Part shown: positions 45,917 to 53,571 of the stretch, one piece after another | Layout: every line of letters begins with the position of its first letter | Numbering within the stretch: position 1 is the first letter of the stretch | Assembly (NCBI RefSeq): GCF_000270245.1 | Contig: NC_015635.1 | Coordinates: 930,001 to 994,000 of the forward strand | DNA: 64,000 nt | Reading direction: 5' to 3' | From: Microlunatus phosphovorus NM-1 | GTDB lineage: Bacteria > Actinomycetota > Actinomycetes > Propionibacteriales > Propionibacteriaceae | Made by a program: the position numbers and the translations under genes | The notes under the pieces: generated by a model | The model's database searches: none | Seen by the model: only the letters and a program-made list of their open reading frames with translations | Told to the model about the DNA's origin: nothing

Positions 45917-45999
45917 GAGTGCGGGTCACTCCTTGGAAGTCGCGATCGGTACCATCATTCTCTCGGCGATGGAGAGCGGGAGCACGCATCTCTGCCGGG

Positions 46000-47664
46000 A
46001 TGAGCGAGATTGCGGGGTGGGCGATGACCCAGCCGTCACCCGATGCTTGGACGCTGGCCTCCGGGATGGCCATCGCCGTGTTGCTCTTCGCGGGCATTGG
46101 CACCTGGCCCGTGTGCCTGCTGATCCTCTCGTTGTACCGGAAGGCGATCGAGCGTGGCATGCGGCGCTCCCGGCAGTTGGCACCGACACCGACCATGGCG
46201 CAGCCGACACCGACGGCACCGGTGCGCGAGATATCCCTTGTGGACGGGAGATCGGCGGTTGCGTCCCCGCTGGGTGCGCAAGCGCTCCGCGGGATCCGGC
46301 GCGTTCAGTGGGTGTACGCGGTTGCGGCCGCCGGCTACGGGGTGGCCGCGGTGGTGGTCTTCCACCAGGTCGAATCGATGGAGGTGCTGCCCGTTCGCAG
46401 CCTGGTCCTCGGTCTGCTCTTCAGCTGGCCGATCGTCCCCACGTTGATCTCGCTGACTCCGATTGGTCGTGCCGAGCGGTGGCTGATCTGGTCAGGTTGG
46501 CTGGCCCTGATCGTGGTGCTGCTGGTGATCGGGAGACTCCCTTTGCTGCAGATCCTCGGTGGGATCGGACTGCTGATCGGGTTGCCGGCACTCTTCGTAC
46601 TGGCCAGTAGCGCCCGATCGATGCGCGGAGCCGCGTGGCTGGTCGCCCCCTCGATGGTCATGATCGGCCTGGCCTTCTGGGAGCTCTATCCAGTCGTCTT
46701 CGCCCTCCTCGAGGGAGTGTGGGTCGGCGTTCTGGCCGTGCCGTTCGTCGCCAAGGCGTTGGGCTATCTGGCTCTCGTGCCCGCGTACGCCTGGCTGATG
46801 ACCCGGATCTATGCGGTGAAGCTGATCGGCGACGAGACGTTGTTGCTCCTGCAATGGTGGTTCGTCGCCACGATCGTGTACGCCTCCCTGCTGACTCCGC
46901 TGGGCGCCGCTGCGGTCGCCGTCGGGTTCATCCCGTACGCCGTCCTCCTCGTCATCTTGTTCGTCTCCTTCCTGCTGCAACGCCCAGGGCGGCAGGCCCC
47001 GGTCCGGCTGCTGCTGTTGCGTACCTTCGGTGCTCGACGGCGAAGCACCCGGCTGCTCCGCGACCTGACTCGCCAGTGGCGGTGGGTCGGCAGCGTCGAG
47101 CTGATCACCGCACCCGATCTGGCCACCGAGGCGCTCACGCCTGACGAACTGGTGGACTTCATCAGCTTCCGGCTGTCGCGCCGTTTCGTCCGCGACGAGA
47201 GCATGATCGGGCACCGTCTGGAATCGCTTGATCTGCGACCTGACCGGGACGGCAGATACCGAGTCAACGAACTCATGTGCCATGACGACACCTGGCGTCC
47301 CACGGTCGAGTCACTGATCTCGAGCGTGGACGTCATCCTGCTGGATCTCCGAGGCTTCGGCCCCCACCATGCCGGGGTCACCGAGGAACTCGAACGTCTT
47401 GTCGCGCTGGTGCCGCTGCACAAGGTCGTCGCCCTGGTGGACGACACCACTGACGTCAACGCCTTCCCGGGGGGCGTTGTGGCGAGCCGCGGCCTTCGCC
47501 CCGCCCTCGTCGCCGCTGGCGACGGACCCCTTTCCGGCACTGCGGGTGATCCAGAGTTCGACTTCTCGCACTGGTCTGCGTCAGTTGCTGAATGCGCTGG
47601 GGGTGGCGGTGGATCCGCGACTTGCACCAGGCAGTGCCTGATCACGCCGCTGTCAACGTGCTGA
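46000..47664 (+). CDS. Multi-pass membrane protein with C-terminal cytosolic domain; 3' end probably frameshifted
   Basis: About 554 residues. Nine or ten hydrophobic helices occupy residues 15-350 (for example LASGMAIAVLLFAGIGTW, AVPFVAKALGYLALVPAYAW, VLLVILFVSFLLQRP). A soluble domain then follows: RLLLLRTFGARRRSTRLL, DFISFRLSRRFVRDESM, SSVDVILLDLRGFGPHHAG and LHKVVALVDDTTD, alternating strands and helices like a Rossmann/TIR-type fold. Family unknown. The last residues (AECAGGGGGSATCT...) look unnatural, whereas another frame gives LRQLLNALGVAVDPRL and a stop at 47641, so a frameshift near 47540 is likely. The start is ATG 46000 or ATG 46024. The end overlaps the converging TIR gene by 12 bp. 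Confidence 0.65.
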   Translation: MSEIAGWAMTQPSPDAWTLASGMAIAVLLFAGIGTWPVCLLILSLYRKAIERGMRRSRQLAPTPTMAQPTPTAPVREISLVDGRSAVASPLGAQALRGIRRVQWVYAVAAAGYGVAAVVVFHQVESMEVLPVRSLVLGLLFSWPIVPTLISLTPIGRAERWLIWSGWLALIVVLLVIGRLPLLQILGGIGLLIGLPALFVLASSARSMRGAAWLVAPSMVMIGLAFWELYPVVFALLEGVWVGVLAVPFVAKALGYLALVPAYAWLMTRIYAVKLIGDETLLLLQWWFVATIVYASLLTPLGAAAVAVGFIPYAVLLVILFVSFLLQRPGRQAPVRLLLLRTFGARRRSTRLLRDLTRQWRWVGSVELITAPDLATEALTPDELVDFISFRLSRRFVRDESMIGHRLESLDLRPDRDGRYRVNELMCHDDTWRPTVESLISSVDVILLDLRGFGPHHAGVTEELERLVALVPLHKVVALVDDTTDVNAFPGGVVASRGLRPALVAAGDGPLSGTAGDPEFDFSHWSASVAECAGGGGGSATCTRQCLITPLSTC

Positions 47665-48612
47665 CCGACCCAGGGCGTCCGTCACCATCTCTATCAGGTC
47701 AGTTGGTCTATTGGTCGATCCTTGAGCGCCCCTCGACAATGCCTCGCGGCGATGGGCTTCGGAGCCCGAGGCGGCGTAGATGAAGTAGGGAGTGCCTATG
47801 CCTGCCCGCCGTACTTCCGCGAGCAACCTATAGCCCTCGCGGGCGCCCTCCTTGCGGCCCATATCGGAGATGATCACGCCATAGCGGTTGTTCTCCAGGC
47901 GAGCCATGGCTTCGTCGGTGGACAAGGCCAGCTCGACCGCCAGACCAAGTGATTCGAACATTCTCCTTTCGTGGATGTTGTTCTCCGGCCGATCGTCGAC
48001 CCAGAGCAAGGAATCTGGCTGACCAGCCGGCGCTCCTCGGCTGGTGCTGTGTGCTGCATCAGCTGCCCGGATCACCCGGTCGGCCAGGATGTCGGCTGCC
48101 ATCGGTGCGCCGGTGCCTGCCGGACTCTGCTCTTGAGCACGGCTCAGCGACACGGCGCTCGCGATCAGCGAGGTCAGCTCCATCGCGGTCAGGTTCGTGA
48201 GCGGGGTTTGCGGTGCCGGATCAGTCCCAGCTCGAGGTCTGGCGGAGTCATGGATGCGTCTGGCTGTCTCCGCCACGCGGCGAAGCTCGCGCTCCCACAC
48301 ATCACCCTGAACGACCGGCGGCAGATCGTCTGGTTGGAGGGAGGAATCGGCGACGTAGGTGACGATTTTGATGCCGGCGCCCCAGAAAGCCCCCAGCTCG
48401 GCTCCGCACCAGGCAGAATTCACCGAGTCATGAGTCGCGATGAAGACACACACCGAGCATTCGCGAATGGTGCTTCTGAGTTGATTGCGCAGGCCCTCGC
48501 CGGAGCGAATACTGGTGGGTTCCCAGTACGGGACGTTGACCTGAGTCAGAAAATCGGCAACGTTTCTGAACTCTGCTTTGTTGCTGAAGGAATGACTGAT
48601 GAAAGCTGTCAC
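47653..48612 (-). CDS. TIR domain - response-regulator receiver fusion protein
   Basis: A 319-residue protein. Residues 1-120 are a TIR domain: AFISHSFSNKAEF, YWEPTSIRSGEGL, CVFIATHDSVNSAWCGAELG, with E72 at the place of the NADase catalytic glutamate. Residues about 200-315 form a receiver domain: acidic pair D206/D207 (LLWVDDRPEN), phosphoacceptor D250 in IISDMGRK, S282 and, at the usual Lys position, R302 in STNRPTD. The loss of that lysine suggests altered signalling. A helical linker joins them. Its start overlaps the SLOG-patatin gene by 4 bp. TIR domains cleave NAD or make nucleotide signals, so this is probably the signal-making or killing component of the operon. Confidence 0.85.
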   Translation of the reverse strand: MTAFISHSFSNKAEFRNVADFLTQVNVPYWEPTSIRSGEGLRNQLRSTIRECSVCVFIATHDSVNSAWCGAELGAFWGAGIKIVTYVADSSLQPDDLPPVVQGDVWERELRRVAETARRIHDSARPRAGTDPAPQTPLTNLTAMELTSLIASAVSLSRAQEQSPAGTGAPMAADILADRVIRAADAAHSTSRGAPAGQPDSLLWVDDRPENNIHERRMFESLGLAVELALSTDEAMARLENNRYGVIISDMGRKEGAREGYRLLAEVRRAGIGTPYFIYAASGSEAHRREALSRGAQGSTNRPTDLIEMVTDALGRSAR

Positions 48613-50381
48613 GCTGCCTCCCCGGAAGGTCTGGGCGGCAGGAAGCCACTGAAATGCTTACCCACCGCGACATCCTGGGCGGCCAGGGTGCCTAGTTTCT
48701 GCCAGTTGTCGATCTGGCGATAGTTGTCCATGGCGGTGACCGCCGGCCAGTCCTGGTCGGCGATGCCGGCCGCTGTCAGGCCGTCCGGACCGAGGTCGCT
48801 GTCATAGTGGACATAGCTGAAGTACTGGCCGATGGCGGGGATGCCGACCTGCTGGCTGAGTTCCTGCTGTTGCTCCCAGGCGTCCAGGTCGTGCGCCGGA
48901 AAGAGCTGCCCGGTCAGCTTGCCCACCTCGCGGTCGAGCTCAGGTCCGAAGCGGCAGTCACCGATCACCCGACACAGCAGGTCCTGGCTGAACGCGCTGC
49001 CGTTCATCAAGACCGAGGGCAGTCTGCCGAGATTCGCCAGGGATTCCAGCGGCTGCCAGGACCGCTCTGGACCGGCCTGAGCGCGTACGCCGGTGCCGAC
49101 CGAGACCACCAGCAGGTCACGATTGCCGGTCGGCCAGCCGAGCCCGTACGCGGGCACGGTGGCCATCACCGCGGCGATCAGCGCCGGGTTGTTGAACGCA
49201 GTCACACCACCGTCCTGGAAGCGGACCCGCTGCTGCCCGACCTGGACGGTCTCCGGCGGGAAATAGGTGGGCGCCGCGGTGCTGCCCCGGACCAGTTTCA
49301 CCAAGGGCAGGTCGAGGTTGCGGTCCGCGCCGCCTTCGGTGATCAGCCGGTCGGTCCGGTTGTATTTGGCCTGGGTGCAGTTGCTCAGCAGCCAGGCTGA
49401 ATCGGAGTCGATGCGATGCAGCACCAGCAGCAGCAGCGTACGAAGGCGTGGGTCGCCCAGGGTGAGGTCGGTGCCGAAGAACTCCTCGAGCTGCTCGGTG
49501 ATGCCGCTGGCCCCGAACCGCGACAGATAGGGCACGGAAGCGAGGCTGCGCCGGAAGGCGAGCTTGCCGAGCTGGTGATAGCGGGTGCGGATCTCGTCCA
49601 CCGATTTCCCGAGCGCAAGCCCGGTCGCGATGATGGCGCCAGTGCTGGTGCCGGCCAGGTAGTCGAAATAGTCCGCCAGCACCAGGTCGGGTTGGCCGAG
49701 CGTGTCGCGGAGCTGGGACTCGATCTCGGCCAGGATCTCCAGGCTGATCACTCCTCGCAGGCCGCCGCCGGTGAGGGTCAGGATCTTCTTCGGACCGGGT
49801 CCGCGCTGGCGCGCTGCGTACGCCCGAGGGGTGGGATCGATGATCGTGAAGGTCCCGGACTTCTCCCGAACGGTCTTCAACGCCTGCTGGGCGGCATTGC
49901 CGGTGCCGCCTCCCGTGGCCACCACGCCGTCCCAGATCAGCAGGGCGTGTGCCTCGGGCGCCGCCGCCAGCTTGGCGATCATCCAGTCGTTTGCCCGGGC
50001 GAAGATCTGGGAGCCGCGAGCGTCGCCTGCGTCACCCGGCAGCACCTCGACCGTCGCGTGGTCGCGGACGTAGGCGAAGCTCTGCTCCCACACGCTGCCG
50101 TTCGCCCCGTCGCGGACGGAGCGGTTGAGGAAATCCTCCGGCTCGAGCGCCAGGCACAGCTCGACCCGGGCTCCCAGCCGCAGTGCTTCCTCTGCAGCGA
50201 TCAGGTCAGCGCCTCGGGCGCCGCCGGTCAGGATGGTCCACGAAGGCCCGACGTCCAGCTGACTGAGCTCCCACGCAATCCGTTTGCGGACCTGCGGCAC
50301 CCGGTCTTCGGGGAACCGTGGCCGTGGCCGTCCCGGATCGTCGGTGCGGTGACCGCTCACCCAAAGCACTCGTTCCGTCAA
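48609..50381 (-). CDS. SLOG sensor - patatin-like phospholipase effector
   Basis: A 590-residue protein. Residues 1-185 are a SLOG-type Rossmann sensor (VLWVSGHRT, TILTGGARGADL with GG at 53-54, ALLIWDGV). Residues 198-590 are a patatin phospholipase: oxyanion GGGLRG (205-210), nucleophile S246 in AGTSTGA and the dyad Asp D390 in FQDGG. SLOG domains bind nucleotide-derived signals, and patatins degrade membrane phospholipids; the pair is known from nucleotide-dependent conflict systems. The start is an unusual TTG at 50381, supported by GGAGG 8 bp upstream and by the first strand of the SLOG domain. It is the middle gene, 60 bp after the SLATT gene. Confidence 0.88.
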   Translation of the reverse strand: MTERVLWVSGHRTDDPGRPRPRFPEDRVPQVRKRIAWELSQLDVGPSWTILTGGARGADLIAAEEALRLGARVELCLALEPEDFLNRSVRDGANGSVWEQSFAYVRDHATVEVLPGDAGDARGSQIFARANDWMIAKLAAAPEAHALLIWDGVVATGGGTGNAAQQALKTVREKSGTFTIIDPTPRAYAARQRGPGPKKILTLTGGGLRGVISLEILAEIESQLRDTLGQPDLVLADYFDYLAGTSTGAIIATGLALGKSVDEIRTRYHQLGKLAFRRSLASVPYLSRFGASGITEQLEEFFGTDLTLGDPRLRTLLLLVLHRIDSDSAWLLSNCTQAKYNRTDRLITEGGADRNLDLPLVKLVRGSTAAPTYFPPETVQVGQQRVRFQDGGVTAFNNPALIAAVMATVPAYGLGWPTGNRDLLVVSVGTGVRAQAGPERSWQPLESLANLGRLPSVLMNGSAFSQDLLCRVIGDCRFGPELDREVGKLTGQLFPAHDLDAWEQQQELSQQVGIPAIGQYFSYVHYDSDLGPDGLTAAGIADQDWPAVTAMDNYRQIDNWQKLGTLAAQDVAVGKHFSGFLPPRPSGEAA

Positions 50382-50441
50382 CTTGGTCGCCTCCAGCCGT
50401 CGGTTGCCGCGCCCTCAGTATGAGCCACCCAGGTCCGCGAT

Positions 50442-53390
50442 CTATTGAGCGCGTAGCGACTCCGGCCAGCTGCCGTTCTGGGCGGCGAGGATGCCCTCGA
50501 CCTGATCGACGAACTGGGCCTGACCTTCGGGGGATCGTGCCACTGTTCCAGCCGTGGTGATCACCTCCTCCAGGCGCAGAGCCGTGTTGCCGAACGTGAT
50601 GGCCAGCCGGCGGTATTGCCGGCCTGCGAGATGGGCGCCGAGCGCCGCAGCGATCGTCGTGGCCGCCGCCGTCCACGAGGACAACACCGGCATCGGCTGG
50701 ACGGTGGCTATCCCAGTCAGGAGCATGCCGATGAACGTCACGAGAAGCTGCAGCCTCCGCAGCTGTCGGTTCGTCCGGCCGTACGCCCGCGCCCTCGTTC
50801 GATGCCAGTCGGCTTGCTTTTGAGCTCGCACGCTGACGTAGGTGGTGAAGTCGTGGACGCGCGGGAGCTGTCGGTCGGCTGCTGTCGGGTTGCCGTGATC
50901 GGCCTGCAGGATGGACTGCTTCTCCTGGACCTCGGCCAGCGCCTGGTTCAGCAGCTCGACCCGATCCGTGCCGGTGTAGGGGGCGACCCGAACGAGGAAA
51001 CGGAACACGTCCGCCTTCAGCGACTCCGACGTGACCCGGGCCGCGATCCACGTCTCGGTCTGATCCTTCTTGAGTGCGTAAGCCTGAATGAATCCGGCGG
51101 TCGCGAGGGCGAGAGCGGCGATCAAGGACAGCACCCGGGACGGACTCCCCGTGAGCCAGGACAGCGCGGACGTGGCCCCGAGGATCGCGCCGGTGACGAG
51201 GAGGACGAGGTTGAGCAGCCGAGCTCGCCGGATACGTTGGCCGAGGCTGCTGGCGACGGCCGAGAACTCCTGCTGGGCTTTCCAGAGCGGCAGCAAGTCA
51301 GCGTCGGGGTCCTCGGGTGAGGCTGCGCCGGCGACCCCGTCGGGCTCAACGGCTTCGGACGCGGCCGGTGGTTGGGCCGAGGAGAGCGAGGCGATCTTGA
51401 ACAGCTCTGAGGTGTTGATCGGGGGAACCTCAGCCCTGCCCAGTCCTTGGGTGCCGGTCGAGTCGCCGCCATCGCCTGGATCTTCACCCACGTCTCCTGG
51501 AATAGCCACAGCGGTGACCCGCTCGACGCCAGGTATGGCCCAGGCATGGTGCAGCATCCATCGGTTCTGACGCTGCCAAGGTGAATAGCTCGGTCGCTCC
51601 ACAAGCCACGGCGGCAACTGAGCGGTACGCGACAAGACGTGCACATGTGCAGCTGCGCTGAGGACCTGGTGATAGCGGCCGACCCAGCCGGAGGCGTGGT
51701 CGGCCTGCACCGTGGCCAGGTAGTCACGTTTGGGGAGCGGGAGCATGACATCGGTCGGGATCTCGAGCTCATGGCAGACTTCGTGGAAGAGCAGGTCGCC
51801 ACCGTCGGACACGCCGGCGATGCCGATGAACTGATCACCGTTGGCCGTGCCCGCATCCAGCACCTCCTGCACCCTCTCCTTGATCGCGGCCTTGGCCGCG
51901 TCCACCTTGTCGGCGGGGAACCACGGTGTTGGAATCCGGTTGTTGTCGACGATGTCGCCCACGAACACGATGGGATGCGTCTGCTTCTGCTGGGTCTGAT
52001 TGAGCAGCGCGTTGTTGCGCTGGAAGACGCGTTCCACCTGCTCGGTGTGGACCTTCAGGTCCCGGTAGATATCCAGCTGGCGGCGAATGCTCGCTCGCTC
52101 ACTGGGCCCGAACACCGGGCTGGCAAGTGTCGCGTACGCGTTCGCGACCCGCTCGGGATCCTCGCCTCTCAACAACAAGAGCTCCGCAAAGCTGACACCG
52201 AGCCATGGATCGACGGCGGAGTCTCGGTCCAATCGTTGACGAGTCGCTTCGATGGCGGCACCCACTGACACGCGCAGCATCGTGGAGTCTTGGCGTAGCT
52301 CCTTGAGTCGCAGATCGGCCACTTCGTCGCTGGTGGCGTGATATCGCCACTCATCGGGGAATCGGTCGGCGAGGGCGACGGCGATCTCCACCAGGGCCAA
52401 GGCGTTGAGGCCGGAGTAGTAGTGGTTGAGATCCTCTTTGAATCCGCGGGAGTACAGGCGTAGCGCAGCATCCAGTTCTCGCGACCGCAGCGCCTCGCGG
52501 TCTTGCTGATCTTGGGGCACCTGCCGCCACTGGGCCTCCCAGCGAAGCTTGCTGAGGCTGCCGCGCAGCGCCGACAGCTCGGCCAAGGGACGGTTCTTCA
52601 CCGAGTGGTTCGACAACGCCCGATCGATGGCCTGGTCGGAGGCGACAGCGAGATCGTCGGCGCCGGATCCATCGCCGAGGCGGCGGTAGATGTTGGCCAA
52701 GGCCTCGTTGGCTTCGAGGTCGTCGACGCGAAAGGCACGTAGCCGTTCCCAGACGGGCCGTGCGCCGTGGTTGTCACCGACGCGTTGCAGTGCCGTGGCT
52801 ACGAGCCGCAGCGCTGGTTCCTCGAACCGAAGGCCGTCGACCTCCTCGGCGATGAGTCGCAGTGCCCCGGCGCGGCCGGAGCTGGTCGCCGATGCCACAT
52901 CTTCTTGGAAGGTCCGGGGCACGGCGATGAGCGCCGAATGGTTGGTGGCCACGAAACGCCCGAGCAGGGAGAAGACTGGGCTGTCGATCCGCTCACCCAT
53001 CAAGGTGGCGTTCAACGCTCGAACCAGCTGTTCTTTCGCCTCACCGGGTGCGGCCGGGTCGTAGGACAGATACCGGTCGGTGCGCAGGTCGAACGGAACC
53101 TCGTCGACGGAGGCGCGGATCAGCACGGTCGCGCGATCCCGGACCGCATGTCGAATGCCCAACTCGTAGAAGACGTTCGCGTTGTGGATGGAAACATCTG
53201 CCACCACGAGATCCGCCGAGATGAGCTGCTCGAACATGTCCTCGCGAATGTTGCCGGCTTCGATGACCTCGCCGGTCGTACCACCGCCCGCACCTATCCG
53301 GTCCAGTGCCGGCCCGATCAACTCGCGGTGAACCCGATCGAAGTCGATGCCTTTCTTGGTGCCGAAGGATCGAACAACGAAAGCTCTCAT
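50442..53390 (-). CDS. Large DRTase-like / TPR / SLOG / SLATT membrane sensor protein
   Basis: A 982-residue protein. Residues 1-115 resemble the N-terminal DUF4071 (MAP3K-TRAF-binding)/deoxyribosyltransferase-like domain: AFVVRSFGTKKG, ISADLVVADVSIHNANVFYE, LGIRHAV. Residues about 150-470 are TPR-like helices. Residues about 475-640 look like a SLOG sensor (HPIVFVGDIVDN, FIGIAGVSDGGDLLFHEVC, VMLPLPKRDYL). Two SLATT-type 2TM modules follow: LLPLWKAQQEFSAVAS with helices near 730-775, and DFTTYVSVRAQKQADWH with helices near 895-945. SLATT domains are predicted pore or membrane effectors linked to SLOG and nucleotide signalling. It is first in the operon; its promoter lies in 53391-53486. Confidence 0.8.
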   Translation of the reverse strand: MRAFVVRSFGTKKGIDFDRVHRELIGPALDRIGAGGGTTGEVIEAGNIREDMFEQLISADLVVADVSIHNANVFYELGIRHAVRDRATVLIRASVDEVPFDLRTDRYLSYDPAAPGEAKEQLVRALNATLMGERIDSPVFSLLGRFVATNHSALIAVPRTFQEDVASATSSGRAGALRLIAEEVDGLRFEEPALRLVATALQRVGDNHGARPVWERLRAFRVDDLEANEALANIYRRLGDGSGADDLAVASDQAIDRALSNHSVKNRPLAELSALRGSLSKLRWEAQWRQVPQDQQDREALRSRELDAALRLYSRGFKEDLNHYYSGLNALALVEIAVALADRFPDEWRYHATSDEVADLRLKELRQDSTMLRVSVGAAIEATRQRLDRDSAVDPWLGVSFAELLLLRGEDPERVANAYATLASPVFGPSERASIRRQLDIYRDLKVHTEQVERVFQRNNALLNQTQQKQTHPIVFVGDIVDNNRIPTPWFPADKVDAAKAAIKERVQEVLDAGTANGDQFIGIAGVSDGGDLLFHEVCHELEIPTDVMLPLPKRDYLATVQADHASGWVGRYHQVLSAAAHVHVLSRTAQLPPWLVERPSYSPWQRQNRWMLHHAWAIPGVERVTAVAIPGDVGEDPGDGGDSTGTQGLGRAEVPPINTSELFKIASLSSAQPPAASEAVEPDGVAGAASPEDPDADLLPLWKAQQEFSAVASSLGQRIRRARLLNLVLLVTGAILGATSALSWLTGSPSRVLSLIAALALATAGFIQAYALKKDQTETWIAARVTSESLKADVFRFLVRVAPYTGTDRVELLNQALAEVQEKQSILQADHGNPTAADRQLPRVHDFTTYVSVRAQKQADWHRTRARAYGRTNRQLRRLQLLVTFIGMLLTGIATVQPMPVLSSWTAAATTIAAALGAHLAGRQYRRLAITFGNTALRLEEVITTAGTVARSPEGQAQFVDQVEGILAAQNGSWPESLRAQ

Positions 53391-53486
53391 CGATGTCCCC
53401 GCCCAACATAGTGTCGCGACTCAACCTGAGAGAACCGTACTGGCGGCACTGGATTGCATCGAGGACGCCTCACAGGACCTGTTTCG

Positions 53487-53571
53487 GTCGTCTCTGGCCC
53501 GCCGGCGCCAAACGTCCGCAGATCACGTCCGACCGCTGGTCGTCTCTGGCCCGCCGGCGCCAAACGTCCGC
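53487..53571. repeat. 52-bp-period repeat, two units
   Basis: Two identical 33-bp cores start at 53487 and 53539, 52 bp apart, each reading GTCGTCTCTGGCCCGCCGGC followed by GCCAAACGTCCGC. Period and core match the eight-unit array at 37599-38014. They sit between the start of the SLOG/SLATT gene and the stop of the hydrolase gene. Confidence 0.85.

Follow-up and report, generated by a model that had tools for sequence, protein, structure and literature searches.

Microlunatus phosphovorus NM-1 carries three adjacent genes, here named A, B, and C, whose products combine TIR, DrHyd, TPR-S, SLOG, SLATT, patatin, and receiver domains, and the question raised by this locus is whether the three act as one system and, if so, of what kind. 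The genes lie at 47653-53390 of the window, by which we mean the whole stretch of 64,000 nucleotides that was analyzed (positions 930,001 to 994,000 of contig NC_015635.1). A first interpretation made from the letters alone, henceforth the sequence-only reading, had proposed an operon in which a TIR-related nucleotide signal is bound by SLOG domains and the membrane is attacked by patatin and SLATT. We lean toward an operon of the TIR/DrHyd-TPR-S class whose three genes serve abortive infection or programmed death, and in which a TIR signal would drive a lipase and SLATT domains; the operon is a compact, fused form of a widespread class for which we found no experimental characterization in the literature searched.

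All three genes are intact and encoded on the minus strand. A gap of 60 base pairs (bp) separates the stop codon of A from B, the stop codon of B and the GTG start codon of C overlap in GTGA at 48609-48612, and Shine-Dalgarno-like sequences are present ahead of both B and C, which confirms the adjacency and overlap described in the sequence-only reading. The genes and their domains are as follows, in window positions.

50442..53390, minus strand: gene A, 982 amino acids (aa), DrHyd, TPR-S, SLOG, SLATT, and SLATT domains.
52938..53384, minus strand: A residues 3-151, read as a DrHyd (deoxyribohydrolase/TIR-like) domain, NxNxxYELG motif, E76.
51996..52928, minus strand: A residues 155-465, TPR-S sensor-scaffold, Pfam match at residues 208-333.
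51471..51980, minus strand: A residues 471-640, partly degenerate SLOG-like domain with changes at 8 of 23 conserved positions.
50919..51269, minus strand: A residues 708-824, SLATT domain (DUF4231/SLATT_3), from Pfam and hydrophobic helices.
50466..50840, minus strand: A residues 851-975, SLATT_1 domain, from Pfam, NCBIfam, and hydrophobic helices.
48609..50381, minus strand: gene B, 590 aa, SLOG-patatin fusion, TTG start.
48639..49793, minus strand: B residues 197-581, patatin-like lipase, GTSTG with S246, DGG with D390.
47653..48612, minus strand: gene C, 319 aa, TIR-receiver fusion, GTG start.
48343..48603, minus strand: C residues 4-90, TIR_2 domain with catalytic-type E72, from Pfam and alignment.
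47683..48006, minus strand: C residues 203-310, receiver domain, acidic pair and D250 kept, lysine replaced.

Matches above the Pfam cut-offs were obtained for TPR-S, DUF4231/SLATT_3, and SLATT_1 in A, for patatin in B, and for TIR_2 and Response_reg in C. TPR-S (PF20308) scores 44.2 bits against a cut-off of 27.6, and SLATT_1 scores 85.7 bits in Pfam (cut-off 26.3) and 89.8 bits in NCBIfam (cut-off 41). Pfam finds nothing in the N-terminal part of A at an expect value (E) of 1; a PADLOC TIR-effector model matches its residues 42-110 (E 2.2e-6), its E76 (E74 of the alignment) is invariant in 19 of 19 rows, and we read it as a DrHyd domain from its motif and from passages of PMC9503650. The E72 glutamate of C is kept in 55 of 60 TIR rows; the nearest solved chains found by sequence are weak matches (7uwg, E 0.0037; AbTIR 8g83, E 0.0075), and the PADLOC ThsB models (E 1.3e-5 and weaker) cover part of the domain only. 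The catalytic-type S246 and D390 of the B patatin are both kept in the alignment. The SLOG domain of B has the SLOG fold, by which it was identified; when the SLOG alignment was run as a profile against solved structures, it returned chance-level matches only (E 0.18 and weaker, DprA among them), and in a Foldseek search with the whole A model the best 50 matches listed were mostly TPR proteins, with nothing informative on the SLOG of A. Pfam, fold, and residue comparisons bear out the domain content given in the sequence-only reading, including the double SLATT, the GxSxG and DGG motifs, and the TIR-receiver fusion.

The receiver of C has the DD acidic pair and the phospho-acceptor D250 of a canonical response regulator but carries STNRP at the place of the switch lysine. 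This lysine is absent from all 12 rows of the receiver subfamily (C and 11 distinct others from genomes and viral contigs), and a simple hydropathy scan predicts at least one membrane segment in 10 of the 11 others and none in C; the TIR domain therefore seems to stand in place of a membrane anchor. No TIR domain was found at 14 loci with relatives of the receiver (L140-L144, L212-L215, and L236-L240, of which L237-L240 are near-copies), and so TIR-receiver is not a common fusion. These loci encode small proteins, mostly with one to three predicted membrane segments and a C-terminal lysine-less receiver (VDDxPxNN ... SD). A receiver-related domain is reportedly predicted to be a nucleotide sensor in an abstract by Burroughs and Aravind.

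The components recur together in neighborhoods anchored on the patatin. Six patterns from B were used to search 84,980 species genomes for its relatives, yielding 54 loci, all of which were counted, including the near-duplicates L023/L032, L037/L052, L019/L033, and L050/L051; domain profiles were seeded with the window domains and iterated on these loci. Judged by record titles, they come from Cyanobacteria, Verrucomicrobia, Proteobacteria, Acidobacteria, Bacteroidota, Actinobacteria, Eremiobacterota, and others. Within 5 kilobases (kb) of the patatin, DrHyd and TPR-S are found at 20 of the 54 loci, TIR at 26, SLATT at 6, and any partner at 47, as well as SLOG at 29, a count that is biased because two of the six B patterns came from the SLOG part. 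Partner rates are 2.5- to 6-fold lower beyond 5 kb of the patatin (per 100 kb, near versus farther: DrHyd 4.2 versus 1.1, TIR 9.3 versus 3.7, SLATT 1.3 versus 0.3). L003 and L006 encode DrHyd-TPR-S-SLOG, SLATT, patatin, and TIR as separate genes, SLOG-SLATT fusions that adjoin the patatin in L044, L048, L050, and L051 are a precedent for the C-terminal half of A, and L054 holds one of the two closest relatives of A. In a quickly built tree of 59 patatin rows, in which 18 of 56 inner branches are weak, the DrHyd neighbor changes at least 13 times, so the patatin-DrHyd link is not a single inherited event.

Five TIR-bearing proteins from four loci were scanned for other domains. WD40 was found in L013 and in one of two such proteins of L003 (the second has sub-threshold propeller matches only), nSTAND1-WD40 in L085, and LRR-Roc-COR in L008; the TIR domains of the first L003 protein and of L085 were called by our own profile. 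From these architectures the TIR partner appears to carry exchangeable sensor parts: WD40, nSTAND1-WD40, LRR-Roc-COR, and, in C, the receiver. Eight cyanobacterial loci (L004, L013, L014, L015, L028, L029, L030, and L038) combine the same patatin family with a three-TIR protein, with WD40 confirmed in L013 only, and seven of the eight have no nearby DrHyd/TPR-S or SLOG and may represent a minimal TIR-lipase system. Just upstream of the DrHyd-TPR-S-SLOG and patatin genes of L045 lies a second lipase (L045:6137-8542), with a type VI secretion system Tle1-like phospholipase domain (Pfam E 9e-70), and a protein of 1772 aa with hydrolase-like, CHAT, and TPR-S parts is encoded second downstream of DrHyd-TPR-S at a locus with patatin and SLOG (L049:14218-19533).

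Neighborhoods anchored on DrHyd and TPR-S in one frame comprised 17 loci from plasmids, genomes of the class, and viral contigs. TIR lies within 5 kb at 13 of the 17 (9 of 11 plasmid, 1 of 3 class, and 3 of 3 viral loci), SLATT at 7, and patatin at 2; without L085 and L086, which were found through patatin matches, the counts are 11 of 15, 6 of 15, and 0 of 15, respectively. By comparison, controls with DrHyd and no TPR-S hit gave TIR and SLATT at 1 of 35 each, and random windows of the same actinobacterial-type genome set gave TIR at 1 of 18 and SLATT and the others at 0 of 18. These counts make TIR the steady partner, SLATT the commoner effector, and patatin an alternative. The threshold was loose (E 0.01) but the same for all groups, the TIR of L218 being counted only thereby, and the loci are partly non-independent, several enterobacterial and rhizobial plasmids being alike. 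The 11 plasmid loci with DrHyd-TPR-S were hand-picked for variety from 73 plasmid records that match A. Several stretches are short (L133, L136, L137, L217, and L235, and the controls L153, L156, and L165 of less than 4 kb), the TIR of L127 and L131 is more than 5 kb away or uncounted by the midpoint rule, and a TIR remnant in L172, recognized by annotation only, was scored as a miss. In this Lacticaseibacillus plasmid, an IS5-like transposase is annotated across part of the TIR gene beside DrHyd-TPR-S, which may thus be interrupted (L172:2803-4473). On two other plasmids, an annotated set of TIR, 7-cyano-7-deazaguanine synthase, HhH-GPD glycosylase/DNA lyase, TIR, and carbohydrate kinase genes (L088:2450-6812 and L175:454-4865) adjoins DrHyd-TPR-S and DUF4231.

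The operon has three of the features by which TPR-S/DrHyd conflict systems are recognized, namely a TPR-S domain, a DrHyd-type domain with a catalytic-type glutamate on the same protein, and a neighboring TIR gene. In those systems, too, a DrHyd-TPR-S protein adjoins TIR and SLATT genes; here, however, it is fused to SLOG and two SLATT domains, a SLOG-patatin is added, and the TIR is fused to a receiver. RefSeq often names such loci "TRAFs-binding domain-containing protein" together with TIR and DUF4231. Burroughs and Aravind are said to have described TPR-S with TIR/NAD-derived signals in an abstract of 2020 (NAD, nicotinamide adenine dinucleotide). The association of TIR and DrHyd/TPR-S with SLOG and patatin or SLATT is real and recurrent, and the sequence-only reading was right that these parts belong to nucleotide-signal conflict systems. 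The neighborhood survey for which it called recovered the component set repeatedly but did not find the exact architecture elsewhere, and its statement that no such system is described was too strong for the class, a TIR-SLATT neighborhood in phages being published in PMC9503650. For the exact trio we found no description in the literature searched, including passages of the related papers PMC7159879, PMC8195603, PMC10799925, PMC7272460, PMC13092281, and PMC12657218, which is no proof of its absence in print. The earlier interpretation is thus partly supported: it was right in outline, and the novelty is smaller than claimed.

The nearest counterpart is L085, on a megaplasmid of Rhodococcus sp. 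JS3073, which encodes TIR and DrHyd-TPR-S together with a SLOG-patatin that shares 43.5% identity with B over 98% of B; its patatin is sister to B on the tree with a Shimodaira-Hasegawa-like approximate likelihood ratio test (SH-aLRT) support of 99, and it is the only other protein seen in which SLOG lies ahead of patatin (in L024 patatin is followed by SLOG in one frame). It differs in that its TIR is on an nSTAND1-WD40 protein and no SLATT or receiver was found in the 19.7-kb stretch by our profiles. Thoeris, which combines a ThsB TIR protein with a ThsA of SIR2-SLOG or TM-macro type, differs in that the effectors here are a lipase and SLATT and in that the SLOG model is nearer YpsA than ThsA. 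Membership in Thoeris was rejected, as neither SIR2 nor macro profiles match A, B, or C at an E of 1 or below.

The exact architecture is rare. B and the neighboring gene D are each present in 1 of 20 genomes of the genus, the window's own, and in the 345 class genomes searched (own included), A is matched over its full length nowhere else. Among 396 genomes of the phylum (own included), B has three other close patatins, none with SLOG in the same frame; a TIR-bearing frame lies within 3 kb of the patatin in L207 and L209, but not in L208. No other TIR-receiver like C was found in 146 and 345 genomes (own included) or in 5 viral contigs. Related modules are found on plasmids, including those of Escherichia coli and Klebsiella, with the plasmid pair at more than 80% coverage in 2 of 5426 E. 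coli genomes; 34 phage records match A, and the 15 of these that were listed cover the DrHyd part only. Given this sporadic occurrence and the plasmid-borne related modules, the operon was probably acquired horizontally, though its composition differs little from its surroundings. Relatives of the flanking hydrolase occur in 5 of 20 genomes of the genus (own included); of 13 window genes, no other was found in the two stretches taken from other genomes (L189 and L190), so no clean empty site could be shown.

The mechanism that we favor would begin with C as the trigger and end with A and B as readers and executioners. The receiver of C would sense a trigger, the TIR domain would self-associate and convert NAD+ into an ADP-ribose-type signal, and this signal would be bound by the SLOG of B, the TPR-S scaffold of A, or both; binding by the SLOG of B is plausible, and by the partly degenerate SLOG of A less so. 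The DrHyd of A, with its invariant glutamate, might relay or amplify the NAD-derived signal or limit it. The B patatin would then hydrolyze membrane lipids and thus kill, and the tandem SLATT of A would permeabilize the membrane, so that an infected or damaged cell dies or stops growing. According to PMC9503650 and PMC12847820, nearby effectors are activated by ADP-ribose-type signals that TIR domains produce, and SLATT is a predicted membrane effector regulated by ADP-ribose.

Several observations weigh against this mechanism. The exact architecture has been seen once, in this genome, so that the co-function of A, B, and C rests on components elsewhere; no partner lies within 5 kb of the patatin at 7 of the 54 loci, and the L208 stretch has no partner domains except a second patatin fragment. 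The SLOG of A keeps 15 of 23 family-conserved positions, the changed ones including H11, R18, R22, and W150. A promoter scan, which does not cover organisms with other promoters, found nothing at the locus, a scan of six flanking proteins showed only common types or ones with no assigned function and no recognizable defense island, and the base composition of the locus is only slightly below that of parts of its surroundings. Finally, the patatin frame lacks SLOG at 53 of the 54 loci, and the fused SLOG is therefore dispensable for patatin control.

This last point favors an alternative in which the TIR of C and the DrHyd of A deplete NAD as effectors and patatin and SLATT act in parallel through protein contact, with no diffusible signal, because contact or another input must work at those 53 loci; TIR and DrHyd can moreover be NADase effectors according to part of PMC9503650. 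The SLOG fold of B, however, is one used for nucleotide binding and is hard to explain without a ligand, and the closest solved patatins by sequence include signal-activated phospholipases of the cyclic oligonucleotide-based antiphage signaling system (CBASS). We consider this alternative possible but somewhat improbable.

A stress or developmental death switch, with a two-component-like input through phosphorylation of D250 instead of phage sensing, seems unlikely to us. The acidic pair and D250 of C would suit it, and at L054 a hybrid histidine kinase with receiver domains (L054:9233-12118) directly follows DrHyd-TPR-S-SLOG and patatin; that kinase may, however, be an unrelated neighbor, and there is none among the six flanking proteins scanned. 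ASK1 is a stress kinase, and the TPR region of A resembles it: the DrHyd-TPR-S family profile matches the central region of human ASK1 (MAP3K5) over about 250 residues (5ulm, E 2.9e-9; 8qgy, E 1.1e-9). Unlike A, ASK1 is a protein kinase, and because synthetic TPR proteins outscore it on the profile, part of its score is generic to TPR; the RefSeq name "TRAFs-binding domain" seems to reflect the same link. The missing lysine throughout the receiver subfamily and the predicted membrane segments of its other members also argue against such a switch.

A CBASS-like operon, in which a cyclase encoded elsewhere in the genome would supply a cyclic dinucleotide that activates the patatin, appears very improbable. 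CapV, itself a patatin effector, is the best solved relative of the B patatin in the sequence search (E 2.2e-15), and the NCBIfam CBASS lipase model (NF041079) scores 99.8 bits on B, but the model cut-off is 200, the B lipase is fused to SLOG and found in TIR/DrHyd company, and SMODS (PF18144), the one cyclase family searched, is absent from the whole genome. SMODS occurs in 7 of 29 genomes with B relatives, and in each of these its coordinate lies 50 kb or more from that of the patatin even on the assumption of a shared contig. That three unrelated genes met by chance in one variable region would fit an exact trio seen once, but is scarcely credible given the shared strand, the 60-bp gap, the GTGA overlap, and component co-occurrence far above controls.

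Around the operon itself, two perfect 34-bp direct repeats (53486-53519 and 53538-53571) start 52 bp apart just upstream of gene A; their 24-base core is unique to that site genome-wide at up to 2 mismatches, and they are possibly an operator of the operon. Gene D (45919-47664, plus strand) runs toward C, the two overlapping by 12 bp, and encodes a protein of 581 aa with many membrane segments, for which Pfam, NCBIfam, PADLOC, and PHROGs give no family; it has a paralogue (44%) at G000:C1:260882-262384, and no TIR or patatin was found by our profiles in the 20-kb stretch around it.

The operon joins TIR, DrHyd, TPR-S, SLOG, SLATT, and patatin, which are mostly discussed apart, in one testable three-gene unit, and in several phyla, as well as on plasmids, the patatin family and DrHyd-TPR-S proteins are often found with TIR genes. 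Should a TIR product prove to activate B, the ligand of a SLOG-lipase could be assayed directly. A more specific proposal, which we hold to be doubtful, is that a lysine-less receiver recruited from membrane-tethered receivers gates the TIR, so that one TIR signal drives at once a SLATT pore, borne by an ASK1-like TPR-S scaffold, and a lipase gated by SLOG; if true, this arrangement would give TIR immunity a new kind of input and would make a bacterial counterpart to the signaling platform of ASK1. Through the resemblance to ASK1, one can ask how bacterial conflict systems gave rise to the scaffold of an animal stress kinase.
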